From NCBI GenBank assembly GCA_030144965.1, contig JAMPUU010000024.1:186001-250000 (forward strand): 64,000 nucleotides of DNA, read 5' to 3'. A program made the translations under genes and the position numbers. Each line of letters opens with the position of its first letter. The stretch's first letter is position 1. Below are positions 4,100 to 25,865 of this stretch, piece by piece. The notes under the pieces are model-generated. The model saw only the letters and a list, made by a program, of their open reading frames with translations, had not been told where the DNA came from and did not search any database. Source of the DNA: Nitrospira sp. BO4 (GTDB lineage Bacteria; Nitrospirota; Nitrospiria; Nitrospirales; Nitrospiraceae).

Positions 4100-5017
4100 T
4101 CAGCTGCGTTTCAAGAGTCGACCCGGCGTTCCTGGCCACAGGAGCAGGAGTGGGCTCGCGACGAAGACGGAAGAATACGTGCCGAAGATCACCCCCCAGA
4201 GTAGCGCAAGCGAAAAATCATGCAAAACTTCTCCGCCGGCGAGAGTCAAGGGAATGAGGACAATCACGACAGTCAAACTCGTAACGATTGTGCGGCTTAA
4301 CACTTGATTGATGGCGCTGTTGATTGTCGCTTCTTCGCTCTCACGGCGGCGCAACTTCAGATTCTCTCTGATTCGGTCGAACACGACGACGGTATCGGTC
4401 AGGGAATATCCGGCCAGGGTCAAGAGCGCCGTCACGATCAAGAGGGTAATTTCTTTGTCCAGGATGTAGAAGGCTCCGATCACGGCCAGGACGTCATGAA
4501 ACGTCGCCAGCGCCGCCGCGACACCGAATCGAAGTTCGAAACGCGCCGCAATGTACAGAATAATACCCGCAAATGAGACGACGATGGCCACAAGCGCATC
4601 TTCTTGAAGCTTCTTCCCGATGGCCGGCCCGATTTCAGTCGTCGAGTCCACCACGAACTTGTTGTTTGGAAACTCCTTGCTGAAGATTCCCACCACACGT
4701 TCCGCAATCTTCTCTTCGATCGTCGTTGAAGCCTTCACTCGGATCAGCAGCTTGTTGTCCTGTCCAAATTCCTGCAACTCCGCATCGTTCAACCCGCTCG
4801 TTTCCAAGGCCTTACGCGCCTCATCGATCCGAATCGGCTGTTCGAACTTGAGTTGGACGGCTGTCCCCCCGGCAAAGTCGATCCCCAAATTGGCCGCGCC
4901 CCGAGCAATTTGGACGAGGGCAATGAGCCCAAGCACGACCATGATCCCTGAAAAGAGAAAGGAGAACTTGCGCTTGCCCATGAAATCAATGTTGGTTTTC
5001 CCGAGAATCTCTAACAT
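4100..5017 (-). CDS. secF: Protein translocase subunit SecF
   Basis: RND-type accessory subunit of the Sec translocon; with SecD it uses the proton gradient to pull exported proteins through SecYEG. About 305 residues with six predicted membrane helices, a first periplasmic domain (LGIDFAGGTAVQLKF) and the conserved DTVVVFDRIRENL motif after helix 4. The start at 5017 is chosen because GGGAG lies 6 nt before that ATG; an in-frame ATG at 5077, 2 nt after the secD stop, would add 20 residues without family support. It follows secD directly, as in most bacteria. Confidence 0.96.
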   Translation of the reverse strand: MLEILGKTNIDFMGKRKFSFLFSGIMVVLGLIALVQIARGAANLGIDFAGGTAVQLKFEQPIRIDEARKALETSGLNDAELQEFGQDNKLLIRVKASTTIEEKIAERVVGIFSKEFPNNKFVVDSTTEIGPAIGKKLQEDALVAIVVSFAGIILYIAARFELRFGVAAALATFHDVLAVIGAFYILDKEITLLIVTALLTLAGYSLTDTVVVFDRIRENLKLRRRESEEATINSAINQVLSRTIVTSLTVVIVLIPLTLAGGEVLHDFSLALLWGVIFGTYSSVFVASPLLLLWPGTPGRLLKRS

Positions 5018-5079
5018 GCGCGCTCCCTTTTGATAACCTTGGGCTTCCCCATCAACGCTGATTGCCGACGGCTTCATGG

Positions 5080-6717
5080 TTAGATGCTCAGCGCTTCGAC
5101 TTTCTGCCGCTGATACAACACATCAAATATCACTTTTGTCCCGACCAATGCCGTGAAGAGATTGATGGCAATACCCAAACACAGGGTCACGGCAAACCCC
5201 TTGATGGGACCGGTTCCAAATAGAAACAGAGCAACGCCGGTGATCAGCGTCGTGACGTGTGAGTCGATGATCGTCAGCAACGCTTTGTCGTACCCCGCAT
5301 CGATCGCTGATCGCACCGCCTTGCCCCCACGCAGTTCTTCTCGAATGCGCTCGAAAATCAAGACGTTGGAGTCGACACCCATTCCGATCGTCAGCACGAT
5401 GCCGGCGATGCCCGGCAGGGTCAACGTGGCGGTCAACGCGGACAGCGCACCCATCAGGCACACCAGGTTCAAGATTAGGGCAAAATCCGCGATCAGCCCG
5501 GACAAGCGGTAGTACACGATCATGAAGACGACGACCATAGCCCCCGCGATCAGAGTCGCCCTGACGCCTTTGTCGATGGAATCCTGTCCGAGCGACGGCC
5601 CGACTGTGAGGTCTTGGACGATCTTCAGCGGCGCTGGCAACGCGCCGGCCCGCAGAACGATCGCCAAATCATTGGCTTCCTGCGTCGTAAAACTCCCGGT
5701 AATCTGAGCGCGTCCCCCCGAAATACGCTCTTGAATGACCGGCGCCGAATAGATGTTGTTATCGAGAACGACCGCCATGCGCTTTTTGACGTTTTCACCT
5801 GTAATCCGTTCGAACTCCTGCCCGCCTTTGGAATCAAAGGTGATGGACACGTACGAATCGTTGAATTGGCCGATGGCGACCCGCGCATCGCTCAGCACAT
5901 CGCCGGTCAGCATGACCCGCTTTTTGACCACATAGGGAACGTGATATTCGAAGCCCGTGTCCTTATCGACCACTCGTTCGAACAAAATCTCGTCTCCCTC
6001 AGGCACTTTGCCTGCAAATTGCTGGAGCACCTCAGCTTCTTTATCCTTTGGAATGCGGACCGGCAGATCGAGCCGAATATCTTCATCCAACATTTTGAAC
6101 TCGAGCAGCGCCGTTTCCTTGATCAAGTCCTTGGCGCGTTTCGGGTCCTTGACACCGGGCAGCTGAACAACGATTTGCTTCAACCCCTGTCGCTGAACGA
6201 TCGGCTCCGCAACGCCGAATTGATCGATCCGATTTCGGATGGTTTCCAATGCTTGGTTGATAGCCGAATCCTTAATCCGCTTGGTTTCCGCCTCACGAAG
6301 CTCCCACACGATGGTCGCAGTCGACCCTGCTGATTCCTTCTCAGCGAAAATGGGAAAGTTGTCGACGACCTTTTGAGCCGGAGCCTTTGCGTCGGCATTC
6401 TGCAGCTGAATCGTGATTTGGTCATGACCGGTTCGCTTGACCGAGGCGACCGCGATGGACTTCTCGGCGAGGAGATCCTGCAACGCGGTGACAGAACGGT
6501 CCACGGCGATCTCCACGGCACGGTCCTCATCCACTTCCAGCACCATATGAATACCGCCCTGCAGATCCAAACCCAGCGTAATGCCCTTGTTCGGCAATAC
6601 TCCCTTCAGCCAACCGGGCAACGCTTGATAGAAAGGCTGATATGACGGAAGACATGCCACGACCGACCCCACAAGCACCAGGATCAACAACCATAAGCGC
6701 CCACCTACTTTTTTCAT
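5080..6717 (-). CDS. secD: Protein translocase subunit SecD
   Basis: Partner of SecF in the SecDF-YajC complex. 545 residues, usual family size: N-terminal helix, a large periplasmic region containing LGLDLQGGIHMV, and a C-terminal five-helix bundle with the signature GIVLTIGMGVDSNVLIFERIR. It sits between yajC (upstream) and secF (downstream) in the classical order, with 31 nt from yajC. Confidence 0.97.
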   Translation of the reverse strand: MKKVGGRLWLLILVLVGSVVACLPSYQPFYQALPGWLKGVLPNKGITLGLDLQGGIHMVLEVDEDRAVEIAVDRSVTALQDLLAEKSIAVASVKRTGHDQITIQLQNADAKAPAQKVVDNFPIFAEKESAGSTATIVWELREAETKRIKDSAINQALETIRNRIDQFGVAEPIVQRQGLKQIVVQLPGVKDPKRAKDLIKETALLEFKMLDEDIRLDLPVRIPKDKEAEVLQQFAGKVPEGDEILFERVVDKDTGFEYHVPYVVKKRVMLTGDVLSDARVAIGQFNDSYVSITFDSKGGQEFERITGENVKKRMAVVLDNNIYSAPVIQERISGGRAQITGSFTTQEANDLAIVLRAGALPAPLKIVQDLTVGPSLGQDSIDKGVRATLIAGAMVVVFMIVYYRLSGLIADFALILNLVCLMGALSALTATLTLPGIAGIVLTIGMGVDSNVLIFERIREELRGGKAVRSAIDAGYDKALLTIIDSHVTTLITGVALFLFGTGPIKGFAVTLCLGIAINLFTALVGTKVIFDVLYQRQKVEALSI

Positions 6718-11814: not shown

Positions 11815-11848
11815 TAAAAAAAGAGGGGGTAGGTTTCCCCACCCCCTC
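11815..11848 (-). terminator. Rho-independent terminator of respiratory operon 1
   Basis: Read on the minus strand: GAGGGGGTGG, short loop, CC(T)ACCCCCTC (11823-11848, one bulged base) followed directly by seven T residues (11816-11822). It lies 34 nt after the stop of the cytochrome/EB_dh gene and before mobA, so it ends the oxidase operon. Confidence 0.93.
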
Positions 11849-11881
11849 AGTCTTACTGCACTGATCTTCCTTTGGAGAAGA

Positions 11882-13660
11882 CTACAGTGTCTTACCCTTT
11901 TTCTTGTTTGCACGACGGGTCAGGACCCATCCCTCCAACAGGACGACACCCACCGCAATAACAGCTGGATAGATGTATGTTTCCTGGGGGACCGGCGGGT
12001 TCATAAATGTGTAGAAGAAAGCGGAGACGGCCATCTTTCTCCCGGCATCTCCGTTGTGACCATCCCACGCAAAGAACACCGTCGGAATATATTGCCCGAC
12101 TTCAAAAAATGTGTCTTCGTCGTAATCCTGATCCTTCTTGTTTCCAACGGGTCGCTGAATCATTACATACCAACGACCATTCTTCCACTCTGCCTTTAGG
12201 AGCTTCATGCTCTCTTCATAGTTGTCGCGCTCTTCAAAATCCTTGTCCCAACCCGTGCCCTTGAATGCACGGAGAGAGCCGTCTGCCTCCCATTTGACAA
12301 TGTCGACGGGGAATTGGTCATTGGTACCAAACAGGTAACGAGGCTTGATCGGGGCGGGAAGCTCTTTCCACTTCACTGCTGTTTGAATGGCAATCGCATC
12401 GTTGTAAACCGTGTAGTTATTTTGGTGCGCTGCAATTGACCCTTCCTCACCGGTCTTTGGGTCCTGTTCTTTTACATCGATGTTAACCTGTGTGGGGGCC
12501 CAGGGAAGTTTTGCTTCAGCGACACTCTTCGTTCGGTCATCCCACTCGAGCAGGTAGACAATTGATTTATCATTGTAGAGAGACCGTACCCAGATATCAT
12601 CGATCCGATTGACAAAGTTTCTGGGCTTATGAGTGATCTGTCCGCCCATAGCCACATATCGCTTCGGGGCCTTTTGCCAGGCTTCATGTTCGATGTCGGC
12701 AGGAATTTCCCCCTCAACGAGATCCGACGGGACCACGAAGTTGATTTTAGGCTTATCCGTCAATGGGTCAATGGGAAGCGGATTGCCCAGTGTATCTCTC
12801 TCACAAAGAGAATTGACAAAGTTCGCGATGTCCCACCGTTCATCAACCGTCGTGTTATCTGCAAATGACGGCATCGGAGTGCCATTGACGCCGGTAGAGA
12901 AGGTTCGGAAGATGTTGCTCACGTTATATGGATCTTGACGACTACCTCGGAAGTTCCAGCACTTATGCCAATTGGCCGGCTGAATCGAGAAACCCCAGTC
13001 ATCCTTCAAATTAAAAGCGTTTCCATCACCACGGCCTTCCATTCCATGGCACTCTACGCACTTCTTTTCAACGATGAGCTCGGAACCGCGCTTCTTACTC
13101 TCATCGGTTGCCGGTTTGGGTTTTAGATCAGCCAACTGCAAAATAGTTTGACTTTCAGACTGCTTATCAGTGAACTTCCGATCCTTAACCAGCTGCGTTG
13201 TAACAAAAGACAAAACTTGCAGGCGCTGTTCTTCGGTTAAGATGCCTTCCCAGGGTGGCATCGCAGATCCTGGCAAACCATGGGTAACCGTCTCAAAGAG
13301 ATCGTTTTGGCCAGGGATCGGCTTCTTTGCATCAAAAAGCGGGAGTTCGCCGCTAGCGGTATGACGAATTTTAAACGTTCCTTGATTGAAGTTTCGTGGA
13401 CGAGGCCAAAGCCGATCGGCTCCAGGCCCATCACCGGCGCCATCGACACCGTGACACCAGACGCACTTGGTGAAATAAACACGTTTCCCAGCTTCAATCA
13501 TTTCTGCGGAGGGTTCAGGTGCGAGATCCCCCTTCTTGAAACCTTCGGGGAGCCCTTGTGCTGAAACAATCGAATAGCCCGCACTAGACACCAGAACGAC
13601 TCCGAAGGCAACGACGGCTGTAATTCTGGCCTTCCGAGTTATGCTGTCCATCATGTTCAT
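11882..13660 (-). CDS. Exported dihaem cytochrome c with EB_dh-like haem domain and C-terminal anchor
   Basis: About 592 residues. Signal peptide (residues 10-35, ending VSAQG), first cytochrome c domain with CVWCH at 66-70 and Met-type ligand region GSAMPPW, second cytochrome c domain with CVECH at 201-205, then a region of about 200 residues resembling the ethylbenzene-dehydrogenase/DMSO-reductase gamma-subunit haem-b domain, and a C-terminal membrane helix (about 565-585) followed by basic residues. Such proteins resemble the NxrC-type candidates described for Nitrospira; here the gene is last in an oxidase operon rather than next to nxrAB. It probably carries electrons on the outer face of the membrane. 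Start chosen at 13660 (GGAG 8 nt upstream); in-frame starts also exist at 13690 (TTG) and 13654. Confidence 0.85.
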   Translation of the reverse strand: MNMMDSITRKARITAVVAFGVVLVSSAGYSIVSAQGLPEGFKKGDLAPEPSAEMIEAGKRVYFTKCVWCHGVDGAGDGPGADRLWPRPRNFNQGTFKIRHTASGELPLFDAKKPIPGQNDLFETVTHGLPGSAMPPWEGILTEEQRLQVLSFVTTQLVKDRKFTDKQSESQTILQLADLKPKPATDESKKRGSELIVEKKCVECHGMEGRGDGNAFNLKDDWGFSIQPANWHKCWNFRGSRQDPYNVSNIFRTFSTGVNGTPMPSFADNTTVDERWDIANFVNSLCERDTLGNPLPIDPLTDKPKINFVVPSDLVEGEIPADIEHEAWQKAPKRYVAMGGQITHKPRNFVNRIDDIWVRSLYNDKSIVYLLEWDDRTKSVAEAKLPWAPTQVNIDVKEQDPKTGEEGSIAAHQNNYTVYNDAIAIQTAVKWKELPAPIKPRYLFGTNDQFPVDIVKWEADGSLRAFKGTGWDKDFEERDNYEESMKLLKAEWKNGRWYVMIQRPVGNKKDQDYDEDTFFEVGQYIPTVFFAWDGHNGDAGRKMAVSAFFYTFMNPPVPQETYIYPAVIAVGVVLLEGWVLTRRANKKKGKTL

Positions 13661-13706
13661 CCTCATCTCTCCGTATGTCTGAGTTGTCAATAACGCAATT
13701 TCGTTG

Positions 13707-14744
13707 TTAATCCCAGGTACGGGGATAGTAGCCGGTGTGCCAATATTCGAACAAAATCACCTTCCAGATTTCGTCTACGGTCAAATGCTGTTCCCATGGG
13801 GGCATAACCGATGCCCATGGAAATCCTTCATTCGGCAAGCCGATTCCGCCCTTAGAAACACGCCAGAAGATAAACGTTTCCTGGAGTTGTGCAATCGTCC
13901 CTGGGTCGGTGAAATTGGCGGGAATCGGATTGAATGCAAAGGCGTGGAGGCCACGGCCGTTGAGATTGTCACCATGACAGAAATGACAATTTTGGAAGAA
14001 TATCTCGCCTCCCTCTCGCACGTACTTCAAATACCCCGTATTCTTGTCGTCCCACGGATTGGCATTCGGCTTCATCAAACGCCCCATACCTTGCTCAACA
14101 ATATTGGCGTTCGAAAACTCCTGATCGTACTTTCCCTCTGGATTCACGCGATAAGGATTTTGCGAAGTCTGTAATGTATACGTTTTACCATGAACTTTTG
14201 TGCTTGCTGGCGGTGCCGGGTGAACCGTCCTCAATTCGATCGGCTCTTCCGATTTTGGCATCATGGCATTGAACGAAAATCCACCAATAAGGATCGGGAG
14301 GATTACAAGATACGCATAACGCAGAAGTTTATTCATCCCCGTTTGTGCGTCGAGCACATTCATAATTGGCTGTTTAAATTTTCTCCAGTCCTCTTCATTT
14401 GCAGAGACCCACATGAACACCGCGACGAGGCTTACCGTGCCATACATGGCTCGCACACTGAAGGGGATCGGTGGATATACACGGTATTTCAGATAGAGCA
14501 TGAAGAATACCCAGAAGCCGATTCCCTGCCAGAATCTCGGCATAGGCATGCCCATGGCACTGAGCATGTAACTCAACCCTGCAAAGCCGATCACATAACA
14601 CGTCACTTCAAGCAGCATCTGGATCGGCATGTAACCTTCGATCAACCGTATGGTAGTGGATGGAACGATGTCGAAAGTCATCCCACCAAGAAGGAGAATT
14701 CCCGCTACTCCCACCAAGGCACCGAGTGACATCAACGCTTTCAT
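13707..14744 (-). CDS. Membrane-anchored monohaem cytochrome c
   Basis: 345 residues: five predicted membrane helices (about 7-23, 43-62, 72-87, 100-114, 143-158) followed by a periplasmic cytochrome c domain with CHFCH at 253-257 and a Met-ligand region ASVMPPW near 315-321. Likely an electron-transfer subunit of the bd-like complex encoded in the same operon. The start at 14744 has GGGAG about 6 nt upstream; a TTG 6 nt earlier is less likely. No close named family is recognised for the helical part. Confidence 0.82.
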   Translation of the reverse strand: MKALMSLGALVGVAGILLLGGMTFDIVPSTTIRLIEGYMPIQMLLEVTCYVIGFAGLSYMLSAMGMPMPRFWQGIGFWVFFMLYLKYRVYPPIPFSVRAMYGTVSLVAVFMWVSANEEDWRKFKQPIMNVLDAQTGMNKLLRYAYLVILPILIGGFSFNAMMPKSEEPIELRTVHPAPPASTKVHGKTYTLQTSQNPYRVNPEGKYDQEFSNANIVEQGMGRLMKPNANPWDDKNTGYLKYVREGGEIFFQNCHFCHGDNLNGRGLHAFAFNPIPANFTDPGTIAQLQETFIFWRVSKGGIGLPNEGFPWASVMPPWEQHLTVDEIWKVILFEYWHTGYYPRTWD

Positions 14745-14791
14745 CGGCAACTCCCTTTACTCTCCGCAATACAGGCAATTGGAGGCAGCTA

Positions 14792-16096
14792 TCAAATCTT
14801 TGGCGGCGGCGCTCCAGTTTTAACCTGTGATAAATAGTCGACAATTTTCTTTAAGGCACCCGCGCTTAGCTTTTGTCCAAAGACCTTGGGCATGGTGTTA
14901 TCAGGAAACGGCTTCACCACAAACGCACTGGGATCCACGATTGATTCCATAATATATTCAGTTGGTGATTTGGCAGTTCCCTTATAGGTAGGATCTTTGA
15001 TTCGCTGCGCTGCGGTTGTACCTTCTTCAAGTTTAGGACCGATGGTCCCCATTGCTCCGGGGATCCCTGGAATTGTATGACAGGAGACACATTGCGCCTT
15101 AGCAAAAATCTGGTCCACCGGTTCCGACCCATCGGCCATCAGTGAAGTAGCCCCTGCTGGTTTGTCCTCGGCCATCTTAGGACGGTCGGCTTCAGGGATA
15201 AACTTTTCGTAGGACTTGACGATTTCTTCGAAGGAGGGAGCATCAATCCCTTCACGCACATACATCCACGTATCTACAGCCGCAAGTTCTGGGAGGCTGA
15301 GCGAGATGGGTGGTTTATGGATAGCCGGCATCGGACTTTGTTTGTCATTCGTTCCCTTCACACCATATCCCGCAACCACATAGCAACTTGGACAAGCATG
15401 TGATTCCGCGATATACTCCTGTGCGTTTTCTGCAGTTCCTGAACCAGCGAATGCTTCCTTAACTTCGTATTCCCGCTTGGCTGGATTACCTTTGGAATAT
15501 TTTGGATCTTCCAATCGTTCCTTCCCGCGACCGGGAAGTCCCGCCAAGTTAGGCGCACGTTCGCCGAGCATACCGGCATGGAACGCATGACAGAGAGGGC
15601 ATTGCCCCTTGCCAATTGCTCCCTGCTCCTTGTTCTTCCCGATCCCGCCAAAGATGATCTTTTCGCCTTCGTCAGCAAGTTGCTGCGGCGTCATCGAGCT
15701 AAAATCAAGCTTTTCTTCCTTGGGAGGGAAACCACCTTCGACCTGCGGAAGCCAGTTCCCATAGCCGGAAAGAAAGGCAGCCACAAAGAACATGAAACCA
15801 CCAATCTTTAAAAGTGCGCTAAGATTAGTGAAGTACAAGGCCATCACGAAAGTTGTGACGGTGATCATCACAAGCGAGACCGGCAACAACCGATTTTCGC
15901 CATAGAAGTTGTTTGCGTAATTCGCAATGGCAGCGAACAGCAAAAACGTCGCCACAAGACCGATAAAAGTCTTAAACACCGCGCGCTTCTTTGCGGCAGG
16001 ATCACTGATGGACACCTGAAAATAGACCATCAGACCTGCAACGATGGCCAGAGCCATCCAACCCATTGAGAGTGCTTCAGCAATCAGGTTACCCAA
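14792..16096 (-). CDS. Membrane-anchored dihaem cytochrome c with an extra cysteine pair
   Basis: 434 residues: four predicted N-terminal membrane helices (about 10-29, 42-60, 71-90, 95-111), then two tandem cytochrome c domains with CPLCH at 166-170 and CVSCH at 336-340. The two domains are internal repeats (each continues with EYIxES and a Met-ligand segment, SPMP or NTMP). In domain 1 the repeat position 235-238 is CPSC, where domain 2 has DPSA (388-391): an additional cysteine pair, not a haem motif. Start is TTG at 16096, supported by AGGAGGT 7 nt upstream. Placed between the bd-like gene and the monohaem cytochrome; probably the electron donor arm of the complex. Confidence 0.85.
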   Translation of the reverse strand: MGNLIAEALSMGWMALAIVAGLMVYFQVSISDPAAKKRAVFKTFIGLVATFLLFAAIANYANNFYGENRLLPVSLVMITVTTFVMALYFTNLSALLKIGGFMFFVAAFLSGYGNWLPQVEGGFPPKEEKLDFSSMTPQQLADEGEKIIFGGIGKNKEQGAIGKGQCPLCHAFHAGMLGERAPNLAGLPGRGKERLEDPKYSKGNPAKREYEVKEAFAGSGTAENAQEYIAESHACPSCYVVAGYGVKGTNDKQSPMPAIHKPPISLSLPELAAVDTWMYVREGIDAPSFEEIVKSYEKFIPEADRPKMAEDKPAGATSLMADGSEPVDQIFAKAQCVSCHTIPGIPGAMGTIGPKLEEGTTAAQRIKDPTYKGTAKSPTEYIMESIVDPSAFVVKPFPDNTMPKVFGQKLSAGALKKIVDYLSQVKTGAPPPKI

Positions 16097-16173
16097 GGTC
16101 TTGACCTCCTACAGCTTCAACGGCGGTGGAAAGCTTCCTCGCCCCGTTGAGCCAACTGTCAATAAGGCACCGA

Positions 16174-18090
16174 TCAGTGACTAGCGGCCGGCTGCGGGAC
16201 ACTGCCCGGGATACCCGCCTTTGCCTCCACCGGAACTTTCTTCGCAGTCAAGCTGCCGAGCCAAAAGACAAAGAGAATAGTGATCCAGAAAAACAACACA
16301 TTAAATGAAATCATGTTAGCGGCAAATCCGACGGTATGCGTATAGGCCCAAGGGGAATTGTCACGCATGATCTCATTGACATGCCAAAACAGACGGACCG
16401 AGGAGCGAATATAGCCCATTAAACCCATCATCCAGGTAAATGCCGTCGCCAGCATAATAAGGGCATACTGAGAGCGAGCGGAAATCTTACCCCACTCTAT
16501 CGGCCCCATTTGCTTGGCGCCCCTCATCATCACGCTGTTGAGCGCGAACATGAAGAAGAGACAAGACAATGTTGTTGCCACTTGGGGGACAGATAAACCG
16601 ACTCGTACGTTTGCCGGAATGTAATACCCGTAAATAGCAAGCCAAATGATGTTGACGTAGGCGCAGGCAAAAAATACTCCCATGAAAATATTACCGAACT
16701 TCGCCCACGATACCGTGGAGACCTTATTTCCTCTCATGTACCAAACGAAGCTCAGCACGGTCGTCGTAATAATAACGTTGATCCCGCCGTTCTTCGCGGA
16801 CATGACTCCGTAGTTCCCCAGTACGGGATGTTGTTGGCCTCCCATGGCCTTCAATTCAGCCGGGGTCATAACCATCGTGTGGGGAGTAATAAACACCATA
16901 TACCCACAGGCGAGTAGGAACACCAGGTACTTGATGTACCGTTGGTATTTTTCAGCACCGCGCATGCGGCCCATTGCCTGCCACAGGTAGTAGTTAGTGC
17001 TCAGAAAGAGAATGCCGATCATCGTGGCCTGAATAATGAACAGCCAGGCAAGCAAACCGCCCATCAGGGTGATCCCCATCTGTTGGCGATAGGCATACAC
17101 TTCACGCATAAGCCAATAGCCAGCAAAAGGTAACGGGATCAAGAAGGCGACACCCAGTGCCATGGCAATGTAGCCCATCCAATCGTAGTGCGCGCGGTCC
17201 TCATCGGTCTTTGCCGCCAGGAACTTATATGCGGCGTAGGCAGCGACAACTCCTCCACCAAACGCCATGTTGCCCAGAATGCGATGGAGATTAAGCGGAT
17301 TCCACAGAGCAGTGTGGATCACGTGCCAGATATTTCCGAGATATCGGCCCTGCTCATCGACTCCGGCCGGCGACATCATGAAGCCGATCCAGGAATTGGC
17401 CAAGAACATGAGCAGAGTACCAATAATGTTCAGGATCACCGACATGCTCAAATGAATCCACTTGAGGAACCCTTCCTTCATCTTGTCCCAACCGTAATAG
17501 TAGATGTAGAGAGTACCGCTCTCCGCCACGAACATCAGCGCATAGATGTGCATGACGGGACGGAATATGCCGGACAAGTAGGAGAAGAAGGCAGGGTACA
17601 AGGTCAGAAACGTGAAGATCAGAATGCCGCCTAGAATAGCCGTAAGCGAGTAGGCCGTGAGACTGATCTTGATGAAATCATACGCCAGCTGGTCGTAACG
17701 CTTCGCAAGTGCCTTATCTTTAGTGACCACGCCCATGAACTCAATGATCATACAAAAGATCGGTACCGCTAGGACGAAGCTGCCATAGTAGAGATGTTGC
17801 TGATTGGCAAACCACAGCAGGACACGGCTTTCAAAGTTGTATCGCGGATAGTCCCTGGGACCATCCGTCGTCTTAGGAGCGGGAGCGCCGACTACAATAC
17901 CTTCGGTCTTGTAATAGACATCCCGGCCCTTCTCGACTTTATCTCCATCCTTCTTTGCCGCATCGCCGGCAGGAGCATCCCCACCGATAGCCGGTGAAGG
18001 CAACGCTACGACGATCGGAAGCAGAAGGAGGCCAACCATCATGCAGAGCGCCATGATAGAAAAGACGCGCTTGCCGGTTAAAAGGCCCAT
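16174..18090 (-). CDS. Cytochrome bd-like oxidase subunit (operon 1)
   Basis: 638 residues, about 14 predicted membrane helices, longer than canonical CydA. It matches CydA in order: NQQHLYYG (the N-terminal haem-ligand His region), VAESGTLYIYYYGWDKM (matching the CydA FLESTFxGLFFFGWDRL segment, keeping the glutamate equivalent to E107), ANSWIGFMMSPAGV (CydA ANGWMQNPVG) and NLHRILGN (haem b558 His region). The quinol-loop motif GRQPW of CydA is not found, and no CydB gene is adjacent; cytochromes c are. This suggests oxygen reduction fed by cytochrome c instead of quinol, which is inference. N-terminal 38 residues look like a signal-anchor. Start has AAGGAGG 7 nt upstream. Confidence 0.87.
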   Translation of the reverse strand: MGLLTGKRVFSIMALCMMVGLLLLPIVVALPSPAIGGDAPAGDAAKKDGDKVEKGRDVYYKTEGIVVGAPAPKTTDGPRDYPRYNFESRVLLWFANQQHLYYGSFVLAVPIFCMIIEFMGVVTKDKALAKRYDQLAYDFIKISLTAYSLTAILGGILIFTFLTLYPAFFSYLSGIFRPVMHIYALMFVAESGTLYIYYYGWDKMKEGFLKWIHLSMSVILNIIGTLLMFLANSWIGFMMSPAGVDEQGRYLGNIWHVIHTALWNPLNLHRILGNMAFGGGVVAAYAAYKFLAAKTDEDRAHYDWMGYIAMALGVAFLIPLPFAGYWLMREVYAYRQQMGITLMGGLLAWLFIIQATMIGILFLSTNYYLWQAMGRMRGAEKYQRYIKYLVFLLACGYMVFITPHTMVMTPAELKAMGGQQHPVLGNYGVMSAKNGGINVIITTTVLSFVWYMRGNKVSTVSWAKFGNIFMGVFFACAYVNIIWLAIYGYYIPANVRVGLSVPQVATTLSCLFFMFALNSVMMRGAKQMGPIEWGKISARSQYALIMLATAFTWMMGLMGYIRSSVRLFWHVNEIMRDNSPWAYTHTVGFAANMISFNVLFFWITILFVFWLGSLTAKKVPVEAKAGIPGSVPQPAASH

Positions 18091-18162
18091 GGATTACCTC
18101 CTTGATACACTCTCGTTAAATTGCCGAATCTCACCAGAAGACTTGACTACTTCCTCACAGGC

Positions 18163-18294
18163 CTACTTCCGGAACAGGTACCAGTAGTCCAGCCCCTGCA
18201 TGTCCATCAGATAGTGATCGACCAATGTAAAATAGCCGACCGCGATAATAAGGGAGACAATCACCGCCACCACAGGATTATTTAACGCACTCAT
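18163..18294 (-). CDS. Small membrane protein (43 aa), putative oxidase accessory subunit
   Basis: A 43-residue frame beginning MSALNNPVVAV and ending DYWYLFRK. One hydrophobic helix (about residues 8-25) followed by a polar, aromatic tail. AGAGGAG and AAGGGAA lie just upstream of the ATG. It sits 72 nt before the bd-like gene and on the same strand. Canonical cytochrome bd oxidases carry one-helix small subunits such as CydX (37 aa), so a comparable role is plausible; no sequence similarity to CydX is claimed. Confidence 0.7.
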   Translation of the reverse strand: MSALNNPVVAVIVSLIIAVGYFTLVDHYLMDMQGLDYWYLFRK

Positions 18295-18379
18295 TTCCCT
18301 TTTCTCCTCTTACTTAACCCAGCCATCCGTTGATTGAGCTGTGCGGCCAGACCCCTGGCAGCTAGACGAGATCAGCAAC

Positions 18380-18502
18380 TCAGCAGGGACACTGGATTCC
18401 TGCAAACCAATAGAAAAACCATATTCCAACAGCACAGGTTATGTAGAAAATCATCTTGCCGATTTTTATCTTAATTTCGCTGTCAGGGGTAGCGCTTGCC
18501 AT
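18380..18502 (-). CDS. Small membrane protein (40 aa) heading the oxidase operon
   Basis: A 40-residue frame starting MASATPDSEIKIKIG, with one helix (about 17-35, KMIFYITCAVGIWFFYWFAG) and a C-terminal IQCPC. GGGAG is 8 nt before the ATG. It is 85 nt upstream of the 43-aa gene and probably the first gene of the leftward respiratory operon. The C-terminal CxC and the cysteine within the helix could bind metal or haem, which is speculation. No family recognised. Confidence 0.62.
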   Translation of the reverse strand: MASATPDSEIKIKIGKMIFYITCAVGIWFFYWFAGIQCPC

Positions 18503-18558: not shown

Positions 18559-18587
18559 TTGACAGGTACCAAACCCTGTGTTATCAA
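18559..18587 (+). promoter_or_regulatory. Sigma-70-type promoter of the 34-aa small gene
   Basis: TTGACA at 18559-18564, a 17-nt spacer and TATCAA at 18582-18587, in the divergent interval between two small genes. Transcription would start near 18594, about 30 nt before the GTG start. Confidence 0.65.
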
Positions 18588-18624: not shown

Positions 18625-18729
18625 GTGACGAAGAACTCAAAAGTGTTTGACATTATAGTTTTGGCCGGTATGGTTGTCAACATCATTTTGGCCGTGTTTT
18701 TGATCCTTTACTACTTTGATTTTCTCTAG
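18625..18729 (+). CDS. Small membrane protein (34 aa) with own promoter
   Basis: A 34-residue frame with GTG start (18625) and AGGAGA at 18615-18620. After a polar start (MTKNSKVFD) one long hydrophobic helix fills residues 9-30, ending LYYFDFL. It lies on the plus strand, divergent from oxidase operon 1 and convergent, 5 nt apart, with the end of operon 2. A good promoter is placed just upstream. Size and topology are like CydX/CcoQ/CcoS-type oxidase peptides; function unproved. Confidence 0.62.
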   Translation: MTKNSKVFDIIVLAGMVVNIILAVFLILYYFDFL

Positions 18730-18734
18730 GTTCA

Positions 18735-19631
18735 TCAGCTTTTTTTCTCTCCCGCTTCTGTCGTTCCCGTCTTCGAAATTGCGCAGCGAAATCCGATCGT
18801 TTCATCTCGAAAATCCGGCATCATCTTGCTTCGGCTGGTAATCCGGATATCACCGCCGGTCGTCGTATACCCTCCCCCCCTGAGTACCCGATAGGTGCCA
18901 TGCTCAGGGCTTGGAGGGTTCTGCTCCGGCGAATCCTTGTAATAGGTCTCGTTGTACCAATCAGCTACCCATTCGATGACATTGCCGGCCCCATCCATGA
19001 CTCCATAGGGGCTCTTATCGGCCTGAAAAGTTCCCACGCGTGCAGATACCTCGTGACCGTCCTGCACACGCGCCCAATTGGCGCCCTGAGGCTGCTCTAT
19101 GTTTCCCCATGGCCAGAGCCTCCCGTCCGTACCGCGCATAGCCTTTTCCCACTCGGCTTCGCTCGGAAGCCGCTTACCTTTCCAGCGACAGTATTCCTCA
19201 GCGTCGTCCCACGAAACATAGACAGCCGGTTGGTTGACGCCACGCACTCTGCTGCCACTTTTTGCATAGCGCGAGGGCAATCCTGGCTTTCGATGGCCGG
19301 TGGCCACAACAAATTGCTGATACTGATGGTTGGTCACTTCATATCGATCGATCGAAAAGGTATCGAGGGAAATAGCGCGCTGCGGCTGCTCATCGAATCC
19401 ACCATCCTTCGTTCCGCGAATGAACGGCCCTGCCGGAATCGTCACCATGTCCTCCGGAATAGGCTCCTCTCCGGAAACACTCTCCTGCTCCGGTTCAACC
19501 TCGGCAATGTTTTCGGACACCGGCTTTTCATACGGCGTGAGGGTGGTGCCTCGCAAAATGGCTGTGATGGGCATGGCGGCGCACACCAGCACCACGAGCA
19601 GGAAGATCAATTTAAATTTGGTTTCGAGCAT
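18735..19631 (-). CDS. Membrane-anchored FGE/SUMF1-fold protein without catalytic cysteines (1)
   Basis: 298 residues: N-terminal membrane helix (about 7-25), an acidic linker and a formylglycine-generating-enzyme-sulfatase domain (IPAGPFIRGTKDGG, YVSWDDAEEYCRWKGKRLPSEAEWEKA, GAGNVIEWVADWY, RVLRGGGY, GFRCA). By alignment to the conserved GFRCA end, the two active-site Cys of true FGE (in the YCYRYRCAARS region of the human enzyme) are replaced by Gly and Ile here. It is therefore unlikely to convert Cys to formylglycine and more likely a structural or ligand-binding relative, exposed outside the membrane. Last gene of the operon and a tandem paralogue of the next gene. Confidence 0.85.
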   Translation of the reverse strand: MLETKFKLIFLLVVLVCAAMPITAILRGTTLTPYEKPVSENIAEVEPEQESVSGEEPIPEDMVTIPAGPFIRGTKDGGFDEQPQRAISLDTFSIDRYEVTNHQYQQFVVATGHRKPGLPSRYAKSGSRVRGVNQPAVYVSWDDAEEYCRWKGKRLPSEAEWEKAMRGTDGRLWPWGNIEQPQGANWARVQDGHEVSARVGTFQADKSPYGVMDGAGNVIEWVADWYNETYYKDSPEQNPPSPEHGTYRVLRGGGYTTTGGDIRITSRSKMMPDFRDETIGFRCAISKTGTTEAGEKKS

Positions 19632-19637
19632 ACCCGT

Positions 19638-20555
19638 CTACGGCTCTGGAGTGGCCACCGCTAGATCCAGATCGCTTGCGCATCGAATACCGATCGTGAC
19701 ATCTGTCCGCCAATGTTTGGCCGCAAATCGCTTGGACAACCTCGCATTATGCTCGGTCTCCCGCCATGAGCCTCCACGCACGACTTTAAGATCCGCATTC
19801 GCTGGCCCCTTCGGGTCACGAAATGGAGATTTCTTGTAGTAGTGTTCGTCATAGGAGTCCTCCACCCACTCCGCAACGTTGCCTGTCATGTCATAGAGAC
19901 CATAAGGACTTCGTCCCACATCGAATGAGCCGGGCGGAGCCAGATACTTATACCCGTCTTCGCTGCCATCGACATTGGCGGCATTGGTGACAAACTTATC
20001 TCCCCATGGATATTTTCTCTTACTCTCACCACGACCGGCTTTTTCCCACTCGGCTTCGGTAGGAAGTCGCTTGCCGGCCCACTTGCAGTAGGCCGCCGCT
20101 TCGTCCCAGGAGACACTCATCGCCGCGAAGTCCGGTTTTAAGATCTTGGACTGATCGTCGTCAAACACTTCGATTCTGGGCATCGCACGTTTGGTCATCT
20201 TCGCGAACCGCACATATTCCTCTTGTGTCACTTCCTTTCGATCCAGAAAGAACCCCTTCAGGTAGACTTGATGTTCCGGGGCCTCATCCGGATCACCCTC
20301 ATTGCTTCCCATGGTAAAGGGACCTTCCGGGATCTGTACCATTTCCCGACCTTCATCCCCTATTTTGGTCTTGTACATCGAGAAATCCTGAGCCGGCAGG
20401 TTACTCGCTGTCGGTCGGGCTTCTGACTTGACCGACAGAGCCAGCTGTTTCATTTGCTTGGCCTTATAGGATTCATAGGCCAGCAGGCCGATCATGAGAA
20501 TGAACGATGCAAACACAAAAATGATGGACCCGACTAAGACACCCTTGTTTTCCAC
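19638..20555 (-). CDS. Membrane-anchored FGE/SUMF1-fold protein without catalytic cysteines (2)
   Basis: 305 residues: N-terminal helix (about 6-27), linker, then an FGE-sulfatase domain (IPEGPFTMGSNEGDPDEAPEH, AVSWDEAAAYCKWAGKRLPTEAEWEKA, YDMTGNVAEWVEDSY, VVRGGSW, GIRCASD). The positions of the catalytic Cys pair of FGE are Glu and Leu by alignment. Only 6 nt separate it from its paralogue downstream. FGE-fold proteins without the Cys pair occur beside redox enzymes in other bacteria (for example NirV near nitrite reductase); a role in the maturation or stability of the bd-like complex is inference. Confidence 0.85.
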   Translation of the reverse strand: MENKGVLVGSIIFVFASFILMIGLLAYESYKAKQMKQLALSVKSEARPTASNLPAQDFSMYKTKIGDEGREMVQIPEGPFTMGSNEGDPDEAPEHQVYLKGFFLDRKEVTQEEYVRFAKMTKRAMPRIEVFDDDQSKILKPDFAAMSVSWDEAAAYCKWAGKRLPTEAEWEKAGRGESKRKYPWGDKFVTNAANVDGSEDGYKYLAPPGSFDVGRSPYGLYDMTGNVAEWVEDSYDEHYYKKSPFRDPKGPANADLKVVRGGSWRETEHNARLSKRFAAKHWRTDVTIGIRCASDLDLAVATPEP

Positions 20556-21651: not shown

Positions 21652-23526
21652 TTATGTTTCTTGCGACGGAACCGGCGAGAGTAAGGGAGCCTGTTCCTTT
21701 CGGAATTCTTCACCCATCACCGGCTGCTGCCCGCGCTGGCACATCCAGAACAGCGCGAGGACTGCCGCCCAAAATACCACCATGTTCAATGTCACCATTT
21801 TTGCGGCGAACTGGAGATCCGGCGTAAAAGCCCACGGCGAGACATCGGCCATCAGTTCACTGACATGCCAAGACAAGCGGCCCGAAGAACGGATGTAGCC
21901 CATCAGGCCCATCACCCAACTGAAGGACGCCGCCAGCCCAAACAAGCCGACCATGCCACGCAGCGGAATTTTTCCCCATTGAATCGGGCCATGCACCACA
22001 GCCCGTCTGAGCATGAGACGGTTGATCACCACCCCGACCACAATGACCGTTAATGTCGTGAAGGCTTGCGGGGCGGAGAGACCGACACGAACTTTCGCCG
22101 GCAAATAGAACCCATAGATTGATAACCACACAATATTCAAAGCACCCACCACATACAGGACCGTGAGAATCGTGTTACCAGTTTTGATCCACGAGATGGT
22201 CATTGTTCGATTCGCTCGGCGGTAGTACAAAAAGCTGAGCGCGGTAACGAGAATCAGAATATTGATGGCGCCGTTCTTGGCCGACATGACTCCGTAGTTG
22301 CCGATCACGGGATGCTGAGCGCCTCCCATCGCTTTCACTTCACTCGCAGACATCAGCAAGGTATGCGGCGTCAGCCAAATAAAGAGCGCCAGCATCAGAA
22401 TAGCCAACAAGACTTGGTAATACGGCTGATAGCGTTCCCCCCCTTTGATCCGCGCCATACTTTGCCAGAGATAGTAGTTAATTCCCAAGAACAGGACGCC
22501 GATTAACAGGGCCTGGACGACAAACAGCCACGTGAGCAATCCTCCCATCATCGTCACGCCCATGGTCTGGCGAAACACGAACACCGATTTCATCAGCCAG
22601 TAACCGGCGATCGGCATAGGAATGAGCGCACAGACCGTGACAAATAGAAAGACATATCCGACCCAGTCGAAATACGCCCGCTCCTCATCGGTCTTGCTGG
22701 TAAAGAATCGATAACAGGCATAGGCCAGCACGACCGCTCCCCCGGACATGATGTCAGCGAGGAAACGATGGACGTTCAGCGGATTCCAGAGAGCCGAGTG
22801 CAACAGATGCCAGACATTTCCCAAGAATCGTCCCTGGGCATCGACGCCGGCCGGGGACATCATGAAGGCAGACCAAGCATTCGCCATCATCAGCAACGCA
22901 GTTCCCACGATGTTCGTCAGAATGCCGATCGCCGCATGGATCCACTTCATGCCCCGCTCAGCCATCCGGTTCCAACTATAGTAATAGATGATCAGCAGCA
23001 GCGCTTCCCCCACAAAGACGGCGGCGTAGAGCGGCATGAAATCCTTGAACGTGCCGCCCATATACTTCATAAAACTGGGATAGAGCATAATGAACATTGT
23101 CAGCATCAGACTGCCGATGAGCGCCGTCGCCGACATGGCCAAGACCGCCACCTTCGCCAGGTCCCTCGCGAGGCCATCGTAGCGAAGCGCCAAAGCCGGT
23201 TTTCTTGTCGTCAATCCGAGGAACTCGATCAGTGCACAGAACAAGGGAAGGGCGAGCACAAACCCGCCGAAGTAGGTATGCTGCTGCGTCACGAACCACA
23301 CCACCAGACGACTGTCCAATGAGCCGATTCGCGGATACGTCGTCTCATCAGGAGCGGGAGCCGCCGGTCCTTCGGGAGCTCCGTCGGTTCCAAAGTAGAT
23401 GTCCGTCGATGATTCTGCAAAAGACACATCGGATCCGTGCCACGAGTATCCAAGCGCAACTAAGACAAACGCGACGTACAGTACAAGACTGATCACGGAA
23501 CGTGTTCCTCGAAATTCTCGCTCCAT
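21652..23526 (-). CDS. Cytochrome bd-like oxidase subunit (operon 2 paralogue)
   Basis: About 624 residues, paralogue of the 638-aa protein of operon 1 along the whole length. It keeps TQQHTYFG, VGEALLLIIYYYSWNRM (Glu retained), ANAWSAFMMSPAGV, NVHRFLAD, TPHTLLM, AQHPVIGNYGVMSAKNG and SFSWVMGLMGYIRSSGRLSWH. As in its paralogue the CydA GRQPW quinol loop is missing. Unlike operon 1, no cytochrome c gene is in this operon. The start at 23526 has GGGGTAGG directly upstream; an in-frame upstream start (23589) lies inside the preceding gene and is less likely. Confidence 0.86.
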   Translation of the reverse strand: MEREFRGTRSVISLVLYVAFVLVALGYSWHGSDVSFAESSTDIYFGTDGAPEGPAAPAPDETTYPRIGSLDSRLVVWFVTQQHTYFGGFVLALPLFCALIEFLGLTTRKPALALRYDGLARDLAKVAVLAMSATALIGSLMLTMFIMLYPSFMKYMGGTFKDFMPLYAAVFVGEALLLIIYYYSWNRMAERGMKWIHAAIGILTNIVGTALLMMANAWSAFMMSPAGVDAQGRFLGNVWHLLHSALWNPLNVHRFLADIMSGGAVVLAYACYRFFTSKTDEERAYFDWVGYVFLFVTVCALIPMPIAGYWLMKSVFVFRQTMGVTMMGGLLTWLFVVQALLIGVLFLGINYYLWQSMARIKGGERYQPYYQVLLAILMLALFIWLTPHTLLMSASEVKAMGGAQHPVIGNYGVMSAKNGAINILILVTALSFLYYRRANRTMTISWIKTGNTILTVLYVVGALNIVWLSIYGFYLPAKVRVGLSAPQAFTTLTVIVVGVVINRLMLRRAVVHGPIQWGKIPLRGMVGLFGLAASFSWVMGLMGYIRSSGRLSWHVSELMADVSPWAFTPDLQFAAKMVTLNMVVFWAAVLALFWMCQRGQQPVMGEEFRKEQAPLLSPVPSQET

Positions 23527-23530
23527 AGAC

Positions 23531-24601
23531 CTACCCCTTGGTTCCATCTTTTCCAAAGACCAATTCCCCTCCGGCACTGTCCGCCGCATTCACGGTCTTG
23601 CCGAGAATCCCCATCACGAAGGGGCAGCGCAACATTCCACTCGACAGTTGTGGAGATTGTTCGTCTTCAATATGACGCCGATCACCCAGATAATAGCCAT
23701 ACAACACCATCATCGCCGTAACCAGCGCGCCCATCACGGCCGCTGAGCTTAACGTAATCGTCGGTTGCCGTGCGACAAACAACAACAGTCCCATCGTCAC
23801 CAGATAATAGGTGGAGGCAAAGGCCATCCCAGGCCACCACCAATACTTCAGCAATTCACCGGGTGCGGTTTGACGGAGCGTGTGAACCCAGGGTATGGAA
23901 GGATAGAGTCCGGCAAAATACGCGCAGAGGGCAAGACCACCGCCGAGGAGTGTCACACTCAGCAATTGAGTCAGAGCGGCTGCCTGCTCATCGGCGATCG
24001 CCACCCCAGCCAGCGACGCCATTGCACCAACACCCAATGCTGTCAGAACCCACGGTCCCAATTGCGAAGCCCGATGCTGCACCAGGACGCGGAACTCCTC
24101 TCCATCAGGGAACGTCAGAAATGGCCTCCCCATGACGGAGAGCTTGCGTACATGGCCGATTTCAAATGCGTCGCGAGCGACAGCCGTACAGGAGATAATG
24201 ATCGCCATCATTGCCGGCCCATCGGGATGTTGGAGGTAACTGTAATTCATAATCCAGAGTAGGGTCAGTACCAACAACGAGAGCTGAATGCCATAGACCG
24301 CTCCGATCCATCCGGCAAGCCAACCGAGACGACGCGCTCCGTCTTGGCGGACAATCAAAGACCATGGTGAAGCCCGCCCAATCTTGTACGCGAGGAGCGA
24401 AGTGACAGCCGCCACTACACTGCTGACCGTCAACAGCACAAGCGGGTCCGCAATCGGAACGAGATGCTTAGCCAGGCGATACACCCCGAAGGCGATCAAC
24501 CCGGGGACGAACATCACGATCCGCTTTTGCTTGCGCACGGCATGTTCCGTGACCGCCAGACTCAAGCTCGGAAGCACCCGCAAGGCCATTCGATGCAACA
24601 T
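23531..24601 (-). CDS. Polytopic membrane protein of unknown function
   Basis: 356 residues with roughly eight predicted helices, a cytoplasmic loop containing FLTFPDGEEFRVLVQHR between helices, and a soluble C-terminal tail (LSSGMLRCPFVMGILG). No family is recognised. Its stop is only 4 nt before the start of the second bd-like gene, so the two are made together. Confidence 0.72.
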   Translation of the reverse strand: MLHRMALRVLPSLSLAVTEHAVRKQKRIVMFVPGLIAFGVYRLAKHLVPIADPLVLLTVSSVVAAVTSLLAYKIGRASPWSLIVRQDGARRLGWLAGWIGAVYGIQLSLLVLTLLWIMNYSYLQHPDGPAMMAIIISCTAVARDAFEIGHVRKLSVMGRPFLTFPDGEEFRVLVQHRASQLGPWVLTALGVGAMASLAGVAIADEQAAALTQLLSVTLLGGGLALCAYFAGLYPSIPWVHTLRQTAPGELLKYWWWPGMAFASTYYLVTMGLLLFVARQPTITLSSAAVMGALVTAMMVLYGYYLGDRRHIEDEQSPQLSSGMLRCPFVMGILGKTVNAADSAGGELVFGKDGTKG

Positions 24602-24618: not shown

Positions 24619-25110
24619 CTAACCTTTTTGAGTCCCCATCCCAAAATACTTCGCTTTGATCTCTTCCATCAGAGAGACCGTGACACGAGATAGCCCGCGA
24701 TCCGCCGCCGTGCGCTCGAGCTCGGTCCGAGCCATTGCGCGAACCGGTGCCGGCACCCGTTCCAATCGCCGCTCTGCGTCAGGATCCCATTCTACCCGCT
24801 CCCCTACGGAAGGATGCAGGACCGTCTCATCGGTGACCACTTGGAGCCCTCGAGCACGAACACCCCGGTTCACCTCTTCCCGAACGAGTGCGGCCACATA
24901 GGGCTGCATACGATCCAACCGATGCAAGGCCTCATCGGTCCATATCAAGCGGTCAACGAGTCCCTGTGTCTGGCCCTCCGGTACATCGACACCGACTTTC
25001 AGGCCGCAACCGCGACATTCCGATCGGACAAACCACTGGGGCATCTCGCCGCTCATACGTTCTTCGATCCCCTCGGTATGCATCCAGCGACCACACCCGC
25101 AGGTCAACAT
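24619..25110 (-). CDS. Zinc-ribbon protein with two PCP_red-type domains
   Basis: 163 residues. N-terminal CxCxR...CRGCG pattern (residues 4-6 and about 33-36) suggests a metal-binding ribbon. Two helical repeats follow that match the PCP_red domain of light-independent protochlorophyllide reductase: one around MQPYVAALVREEVNRGVR and a second around VRAMARTELERTAADRG with EIKAKYFGM. The family also occurs in non-phototrophs. A link to haem or iron-sulfur handling for the neighbouring oxidase is inference; the true role is unknown. Confidence 0.72.
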   Translation of the reverse strand: MLTCGCGRWMHTEGIEERMSGEMPQWFVRSECRGCGLKVGVDVPEGQTQGLVDRLIWTDEALHRLDRMQPYVAALVREEVNRGVRARGLQVVTDETVLHPSVGERVEWDPDAERRLERVPAPVRAMARTELERTAADRGLSRVTVSLMEEIKAKYFGMGTQKG

Positions 25111-25151: not shown

Positions 25152-25865
25152 CTAGCCGATCTTCCCGGGGTACAGGATATACAGCATGGTGTAGGTGAAA
25201 CTCCCCGTGACGAACAACACGCAGTAGATGACCATCGTGAACCGGCCAAGCGCTCGATGACGCCGTGCTCCATTGGGCCATATCCGTTGAATCGTCAGCT
25301 CAATCGCGAAGACGAATGCGACTAATAGGAGAAACGCCAGGTACACCTCCAGCTTCCGCATCGAAAACCCTGCCGTCGCCACACGCGAGAAAAATAATCC
25401 GAGTACCACCACGGCAATTCCACCAAAAATAAGCCCGATCTTCCGCCAGGTCGTCTGCAGGAGTGATTCTCGGAGAGACCGGACCCCATCGACGAACTGT
25501 TGAGAACGAAAGCCCAGCACGATCATGTACACCGCCATGACCAGACCAATGATGACCAGAATGATATGGAGCGTGAGTACCGGAATAAAGACGTAATCAT
25601 AGAGTGATTGAGAGCCGCCGAATCCTTCTTTCCCCTCGAAGGCCAACACGCCCAGCTGCCGGAACAGATAGTAGGCGATGAAGAAACTGAGCATCGAGAT
25701 CATCCCGCCCAGCATCAACCAGTGGTGTGCATCTGCTTTTCGCTTGCGCGCTTGAAACCATCCAATGACGAAGAGAGTGGTGAATAACGTGGCCATCAAC
25801 TGGCTGAGATCCGCGCCGGTTGTTGCATGAGTTCCGAAGAACCCCGGTTCTCTTAACCAATCCAT
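25152..25865 (-). CDS. DUF420 membrane protein (CtaM/YozB-like)
   Basis: 237 residues, about six helices, with the DUF420 pattern: conserved His in HHWLMLGGM, YDYVFIPVLTLHIILVI and HRALGRFTMVIYCVLFVTGSFTY. The family member CtaM of Staphylococcus is needed for activity of a haem-copper oxidase, so a role in oxidase assembly is likely. It is probably the first gene of operon 2. Confidence 0.83.
   Translation of the reverse strand: MDWLREPGFFGTHATTGADLSQLMATLFTTLFVIGWFQARKRKADAHHWLMLGGMISMLSFFIAYYLFRQLGVLAFEGKEGFGGSQSLYDYVFIPVLTLHIILVIIGLVMAVYMIVLGFRSQQFVDGVRSLRESLLQTTWRKIGLIFGGIAVVVLGLFFSRVATAGFSMRKLEVYLAFLLLVAFVFAIELTIQRIWPNGARRHRALGRFTMVIYCVLFVTGSFTYTMLYILYPGKIG

Follow-up and report, generated by a model that had tools for sequence, protein, structure and literature searches.

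The window considered here, a stretch of 64,000 nucleotides from Nitrospira sp. BO4 (GenBank assembly GCA_030144965.1, contig JAMPUU010000024.1, positions 186,001 to 250,000 of the forward strand), holds a six-gene operon on its minus strand, whose assignment to a cytochrome c-linked complex of the cytochrome bd superfamily is well supported. Judged from sequence, this operon, built around the bd-like protein bd3, most likely encodes a cytochrome c-linked O2 reductase, a reading that has about an even chance of being right, and it could plausibly take part in oxygen respiration. A preliminary description had proposed a cytochrome c-fed terminal oxidase complex; the cytochrome c-linked bd-superfamily complex stands, while O2 as its acceptor is what we infer. 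The operon is real and strongly conserved, and its large genes have been described in outline for Nitrospira that oxidise nitrite. What is new and on firmer ground is a conserved small partner protein, carriers without nitrite oxidoreductase (NXR) and without haem-copper oxidases, and a promoter that lies inside a divergent micro-open reading frame (micro-ORF).

The six ORFs run from 18502 down to 11882, at the positions and on the strand first given for them, and encode proteins of 40 (s40), 43 (s43), 638 (bd3), 434, 347 and 602 amino acids (aa). They are likely to be expressed as a single transcript, because a perfect promoter precedes them and a strong terminator follows. The terminator described earlier was recovered (11 pairs, seven T), and the single transcript is deduced from these flanking signals. 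The promoter matches the consensus at 12 of 12 positions, 150-180 bases upstream of the first ORF, and is carried by a third conserved micro-ORF (18625-18729, plus strand) that the six-gene inventory had missed. This micro-ORF is kept in all order-level loci tested and is recognisable in four class-level loci. The codons under the -10 and -35 elements (ATT-ATA and GTT-GTC) are identical in 24 of 24 distinct sequences from relatives, whereas the spacer codon (GGN) and the outer codons show synonymous variation in the same set. Since the promoter codons are frozen while their neighbours vary synonymously, both the peptide and the operon promoter appear to be under selection. A facing promoter on the plus strand, with TTGACA at 18559, is likely from reading by eye only.

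The core protein bd3 belongs to the CydA superfamily. It matches PF01654 with 72 bits (gathering score 26.2; E 3.7e-20) over its N-terminal half only, residues 88-335. A structure prediction of bd3 (AlphaFold 2, AF2; 41 sequences; predicted local distance difference test, pLDDT, 83; predicted template-modelling score, pTM, 0.83) gave a CydA fold, the model aligning with ten CydA structures at Z 30-34 over 347-361 residues, both C-terminal helices included. After CydA, residues 77-616 of the model resemble ActF of alternative complex III (Z 22-23) and PsrC (Z 15), a likeness between predicted and known folds that hints at a common CydA/NrfD-like ancestry.

An alignment of 125 bd-like with five canonical CydA sequences gives His99, Glu190 and His269, all invariant in bd3, as the equivalents of H19, E107 and H186. 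Every aligned bd-like sequence has Tyr183 in place of E99, and E445 corresponds, by profile alignment, to Leu557 (V in three). Of the canonical haem and active-site residues of CydA, whose haem-ligand regions had been described as kept, only H19, H186 and E107 have equivalents, and E99 and E445 are lost. An alternative placing of E445 at Glu330 ('GYWLMREVYAYRQQ') was rejected on the same profile alignment; Glu330 is itself a new residue, invariant in bd1, bd2 and bd3 as well as in bd-like proteins from other phyla. Aligned with CydA from E. coli, Geobacillus and Mycobacterium, bd3 has no quinol site, with neither K252 nor E257 nor the GRQPW loop, the last as had been noted before.

Compared with canonical CydAB-X/H, bd3 thus shares the fold (Z 31-34), H19, H186 and E107, and, by analogy with CydX and CydH, would have tiny single-transmembrane (TM) subunits. 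It differs in the missing Q-loop residues, GRQPW, E99 and E445, in having more TM helices and cytochrome c subunits, and in its lack of an adjacent cydB. The last point had also been made earlier: no CydB is encoded in the conserved island around the operon, and a canonical cydAB lies on another contig. On the other hand, bd3 has the features of the OR-N family, at family level only: it belongs to the bd superfamily, lacks the quinol site, occurs in Nitrospirota and Nitrospinota, and is accompanied by cytochromes c. OR-N enzymes have been proposed to act as cytochrome c O2 reductases (PMC10839748, PMC12342949).

The proposed CydAA' pair of the OR-N family, bd-like_2 and bd-like_1, a putative cytochrome c O2 reductase, shows the same absence of a quinol site, the same H19, H186 and E107, and the same changes of E99 to Tyr and E445 to Leu. 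The ligand pattern was tried as a means of telling oxidases from non-oxidases and proved uninformative, as bd2, the proposed oxidase, has the pattern of bd3. The retained and lost residues hence define the bd-like family and, as far as sequence goes, are silent on which paralogue reduces O2.

The cytochrome subunits are those first described, dihaem, monohaem and dihaem/EB_dh, with two, one and two CXXCH motifs. In the 434-aa protein a middle motif, CPSCY, departs from CXXCH and is not conserved. This protein matches the crystallised Kustd1711 (7zs0; E 1.3e-10), which comes from an nxr cluster of anammox bacteria and whose haems were measured near +350 mV (PMC11791136). By analogy, this value would suit electrons that arrive at a nitrite-oxidation potential; the likeness serves an oxidase and reverse electron flow equally. 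The AF2 model of the 347-aa protein (pLDDT 60) was too poor for use. The 602-aa protein has an EB_dh domain above the PF09459 cut-off (E 2.4e-10), falls below that of TIGR03477, and matches 6h5l (E 1e-40). It shares the EB_dh domain with NxrC and the gamma subunits of type II dimethyl sulfoxide (DMSO) reductases; unlike in NxrC, this domain is here fused with a pair of haem c domains and with a TM helix at the C-terminus.

The same four large genes are found in two published settings. In the part of PMC6606698 that deals with N. moscoviensis, bd-like_3 is accompanied by two membrane cytochromes c and by alt_NxrC_2, a protein with one TM helix and two haem motifs; as here, a duplicate of the core gene, bd-like_4, lies a few genes off. 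The passages of PMC3578206 on the nxr regions of Nitrospina and Kuenenia describe the same gene set, with 14 TM helices and no quinol residues in the core. The preliminary description had called the subunit make-up less well described; this holds for the small subunits, which are new, but not for the large ones, already published in these passages. Neither there mentions the two tiny proteins, the promoter-bearing micro-ORF or carriers lacking NXR.

The two tiny membrane proteins suggested earlier are genuine. Their place is unchanged in all the Nitrospirales operons inspected, homologues are recognisable in several class-level genomes, and the ratio of non-synonymous to synonymous substitution rates (dN/dS) of s40 is 0.04. 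Among loci of other phyla, 32 of 79 bd-like genes are immediately preceded by an ORF bearing the s43 motif, versus 2 of 451 control genes taken from the same loci (Fisher 3e-27); no such small ORF was found upstream of bd1 or bd2. This enrichment across phyla marks s43 as an ancient small partner of the bd-like core. By analogy with CydX or CcoQ, both s40 and s43 may be structural subunits.

The distribution of the operon bears on its function. Matches to bd3 are present in 59 of 59 genomes of the genus, where the protein is 91-97% conserved, and in 111 of 245 genomes of the phylum. Solitary additional bd3-like copies, 78-80% identical and without small proteins or cytochromes, were seen in two genomes (G038 and G003; L055, L056). 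The four-gene module of core and cytochromes is kept together in Nitrospirota, Nitrospinota, Pseudomonadota (many of them, including Gallionella and Mariprofundus) and Myxococcota.

One class-level genome, the aerobic-looking and 96% complete G179, has no PF01654 match besides bd3 and none at all to PF00115, the haem-copper oxidase family. By gene content, the operon is the only candidate there from either oxidase superfamily; alternative oxidase was not searched for. The same genome encodes an O2-dependent desaturase, which shows contact with O2, not respiration. A second genome considered as a sole-oxidase case (G167) was rejected, as it has two more bd-like genes in tandem, one of them interrupted. 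PF00115 is absent from 8 of the 11 class-level genomes with bd3.

Several points weigh against O2 as the acceptor. Tyr and Leu stand in place of the active-site glutamate ligands E99 and E445, and for this reason the standard b595/d pair is not predictable from the bd3 sequence. The N. moscoviensis orthologue has been assigned to NXR anchoring or reverse electron flow in the relevant part of PMC6606698; a related cluster in strictly anaerobic anammox bacteria has been read as NXR-linked, and likewise that of Nitrospina, in the passages of PMC3578206 on them. All 22 module-bearing genomes outside Nitrospirota have PF00115 matches, some of which may be NO reductases. G179, moreover, is one draft genome with the completeness given above.

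The second-ranked explanation, a less likely one in our estimate, is that of an NXR-linked complex, in which the EB_dh/NxrC-like subunit docks NXR and the core sends electrons from nitrite uphill to the quinone pool, not to O2. Besides the published assignments, the EB_dh domain of the 602-aa protein points this way, as do the place of Kustd1711 in an anammox nxr cluster (PMC11791136) and a better-placed oxidase locus elsewhere in the host genome. The anammox link comes from the literature and the Kustd1711 match; no anammox locus is among the best 80 matches of the contig scan. Against it, NxrA is absent from 11 of 11 class-level Nitrospiria genomes carrying bd3, a persistence that sets the operon apart from NxrC. 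Of the ten operon regions read from these genomes, nine keep the four large genes together; the contig of the tenth ends. Some Pseudomonadota with the module also lack an NXR-like protein. A role tied to NXR only is disfavoured by these carriers; with a donor that is not nitrite, reverse electron flow may still be compatible with them. In addition, the core retains no quinol-binding residues, and an NXR-linked complex would leave G179 without a recognised oxidase.

Proteins of the bd superfamily are also capable of detoxifying or sensing small ligands, and a complex that handles O2, NO or other such ligands without conserving energy is an improbable further alternative. The presence of the module beside haem-copper oxidases outside Nitrospirota agrees with it, as does the cluster of anaerobic anammox bacteria in the passages of PMC3578206. 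On the contrary, the strong conservation within the genus suggests core energy metabolism, and so do transcripts among the 40 strongest genes on nitrite, according to the relevant part of PMC6606698.

A cytochrome c-linked O2 reductase would not be the only oxidase of the host. Its genome (4.7 Mb) carries two genes for an NxrA-like nitrite oxidoreductase alpha subunit, has no PF00115 match, and contains, besides bd3, a canonical CydAB and three other bd-like genes, including a bd-like_2/bd-like_1-type locus with complex III (contig C12). This set of bd-like genes is the one already reported for Nitrospira. The proposed main terminal oxidase of Nitrospira is bd-like_2 of the NIDE0901 kind (PMC12342949), and bd-like_2/1 has been put forward as complex IV (PMC12342949 and, in the part concerned, PMC6606698). 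The 577-aa protein of C12, taken as bd-like_2, is distant from bd3 in the tree, so that bd3 is not its orthologue. The bd-like_2/1 locus differs from that of bd3 in its separate position with complex III and in having no s43-like ORF found upstream; it resembles it in that remote homologues of the 434-, 347- and 602-aa genes come after bd-like_1 (region L006 4452-8963 on C12). On this sequence evidence, the proposed complex IV locus is an old paralogue of the present operon.

The earlier statement that bd-like oxidases have been proposed for Nitrospira is thus correct for another paralogue, and the claim that the complex replaces haem-copper oxidases was applied to the wrong one, the published proposal concerning bd-like_2. 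Replacement is only partly supported. It is consistent with the lack of PF00115 in the host and in most class-level carriers, and with G179, where bd3 stands by itself. Against it stand the host's own CydAB and further bd-like genes, and as a general rule it is rejected outside Nitrospirota by the coexistence with PF00115 described above.

Table 1. Position and basis of the operon features and of the neighbouring genes within the window.
Feature	Positions	Strand	Basis or remark
Sigma-70 type promoter, TTGACA-N17-TATAAT	18652..18680	-	inside divergent micro-ORF
Divergent micro-ORF, 34 aa, one hydrophobic stretch	18625..18729	+	GTG start, AGGAG upstream
s40, 40-aa single-TM protein, C-terminus IQCPC	18380..18502	-	syntenic, 70-100% identical in Nitrospirales
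s43, 43-aa single-TM protein, hD..LM.MQGL motif	18163..18294	-	syntenic
bd3, 638-aa CydA-superfamily (OR-N type) core	16174..18090	-	PF01654
434-aa membrane dihaem cytochrome c	14792..16096	-	two CXXCH; Kustd1711 homologue
347-aa membrane monohaem cytochrome c	13707..14750	-	one CXXCH, PF13442/PF00034
602-aa dihaem cytochrome c with EB_dh (NxrC-like haem b), published as alt_NxrC_2	11882..13690	-	PF00034 x2, PF09459
Intrinsic terminator at operon end	11823..11848	-	11-pair stem, 8 G-C, TTTTTTT tail
Two tandem FGE-sulfatase (SUMF1-like) genes, between bd4 and operon	18735..20555	-	PF03781, E 3e-57 and 3e-55
bd4, 645-aa bd-like paralogue	21652..23589	-	PF01654, tree, residue table
PCP_red-domain protein	24619..25110	-	PF08369, E 2.5e-21, conserved order
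DUF420 membrane protein	25152..25865	-	PF04238; near operon in G179

The operon is part of an island (28007 down to 11882) that includes bd4, two FGE-like genes, DUF3047, PCP_red, DUF420 and the operon, whose order is kept in Nitrospirales, as judged from the loci with flanks read. The second bd-like gene, bd4, had been overlooked; it lies about 3 kb upstream of the operon on the same strand (21652-23589). Both FGE-sulfatase proteins have an N-terminal hydrophobic stretch, and one such gene also adjoins bd3 in G179. In a conspecific genome (G058, L091 ~4581-5291) the DUF420 protein is only 74% identical versus 98-100% for its neighbours, a possible gene replacement.

In the tree, the paralogues bd3 and bd4 form sister clades with 100/99 support, the stem of bd4 being the longer one, and Glu330 is Ser or Ala in 14 of 14 bd4 sequences. 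By sequence, bd4 evolves faster than bd3 and is a possible non-catalytic partner. They might form a CydAA'-like heterodimer, with bd3 catalytic and bd4 as a degenerate stand-in for CydB, a tentative proposal with a lesser chance of being right and compatible with the other readings. The constant place of bd4 upstream of the operon in Nitrospirales loci, its long stem and the loss of an otherwise invariant glutamate favour it, and OR-N1+OR-N2 pairs have been proposed for the other locus (PMC12342949); G179, however, has only one PF01654 gene.

The PCP_red domain of the island has a wider association with bd-like genes. It is encoded in 111 of 111 genomes of the phylum with a bd-like match versus 24 of 134 without, counts inflated by relatedness, and in 23 of 23 bd-like-positive genomes of the phylum outside the class. 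Of 34 full-length loci from other phyla, 22 have a Usp-PCP_red gene close to the module, and 17 have a radical SAM gene of the NirJ/AhbD-like kind, frequently as a fusion with PCP_red. A Usp-PCP_red/radical SAM pair lies with more PCP_red genes and DUF420 on the contig of the operon in G179 (L193 2190-9952), and on C12 in the host (L186 3616-7143). A literature search on PCP_red returned nothing on point. As a hypothesis only, this cassette could modify or supply haem for these oxidases. A further-reaching combination is doubtful, and of low probability: the OR-N core would carry a non-standard tetrapyrrole made by genes devoted to it (Usp-PCP_red, NirJ/AhbD-like radical SAM-PCP_red, DUF420 and others) and, together with the cytochromes c and two tiny subunits, would make up a separate kind of oxidase, fed by cytochrome c, which in some Nitrospiria would be the only enzyme reducing O2.

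Taken as a cytochrome c-linked O2 reductase, the operon products would form one membrane complex around the OR-N type core. High-potential electrons from a periplasmic donor would enter through the EB_dh/dihaem protein and pass by way of the monohaem and dihaem membrane cytochromes c to the bd-like core, whose haems, with at least His99 and His269 as ligands, and whose proton-path Glu190 would most likely reduce O2 to water, s40 and s43 serving as structural subunits. In Nitrospira, the complex would work beside the proposed main oxidase (bd-like_2/1) and bd4, its possible CydA'-type partner, and in some relatives lacking NXR it may be the only oxidase.

The operon bears on how nitrite electrons reach O2 in Nitrospira, a globally dominant nitrifier. 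Genomes that keep this operon without NXR, haem-copper oxidases or other bd genes offer a direct way to test its role, and the small partner protein common to several phyla could be used to purify the complex and study its structure. Should the linked PCP_red/radical SAM genes serve the complex, an unusual haem may be held there.

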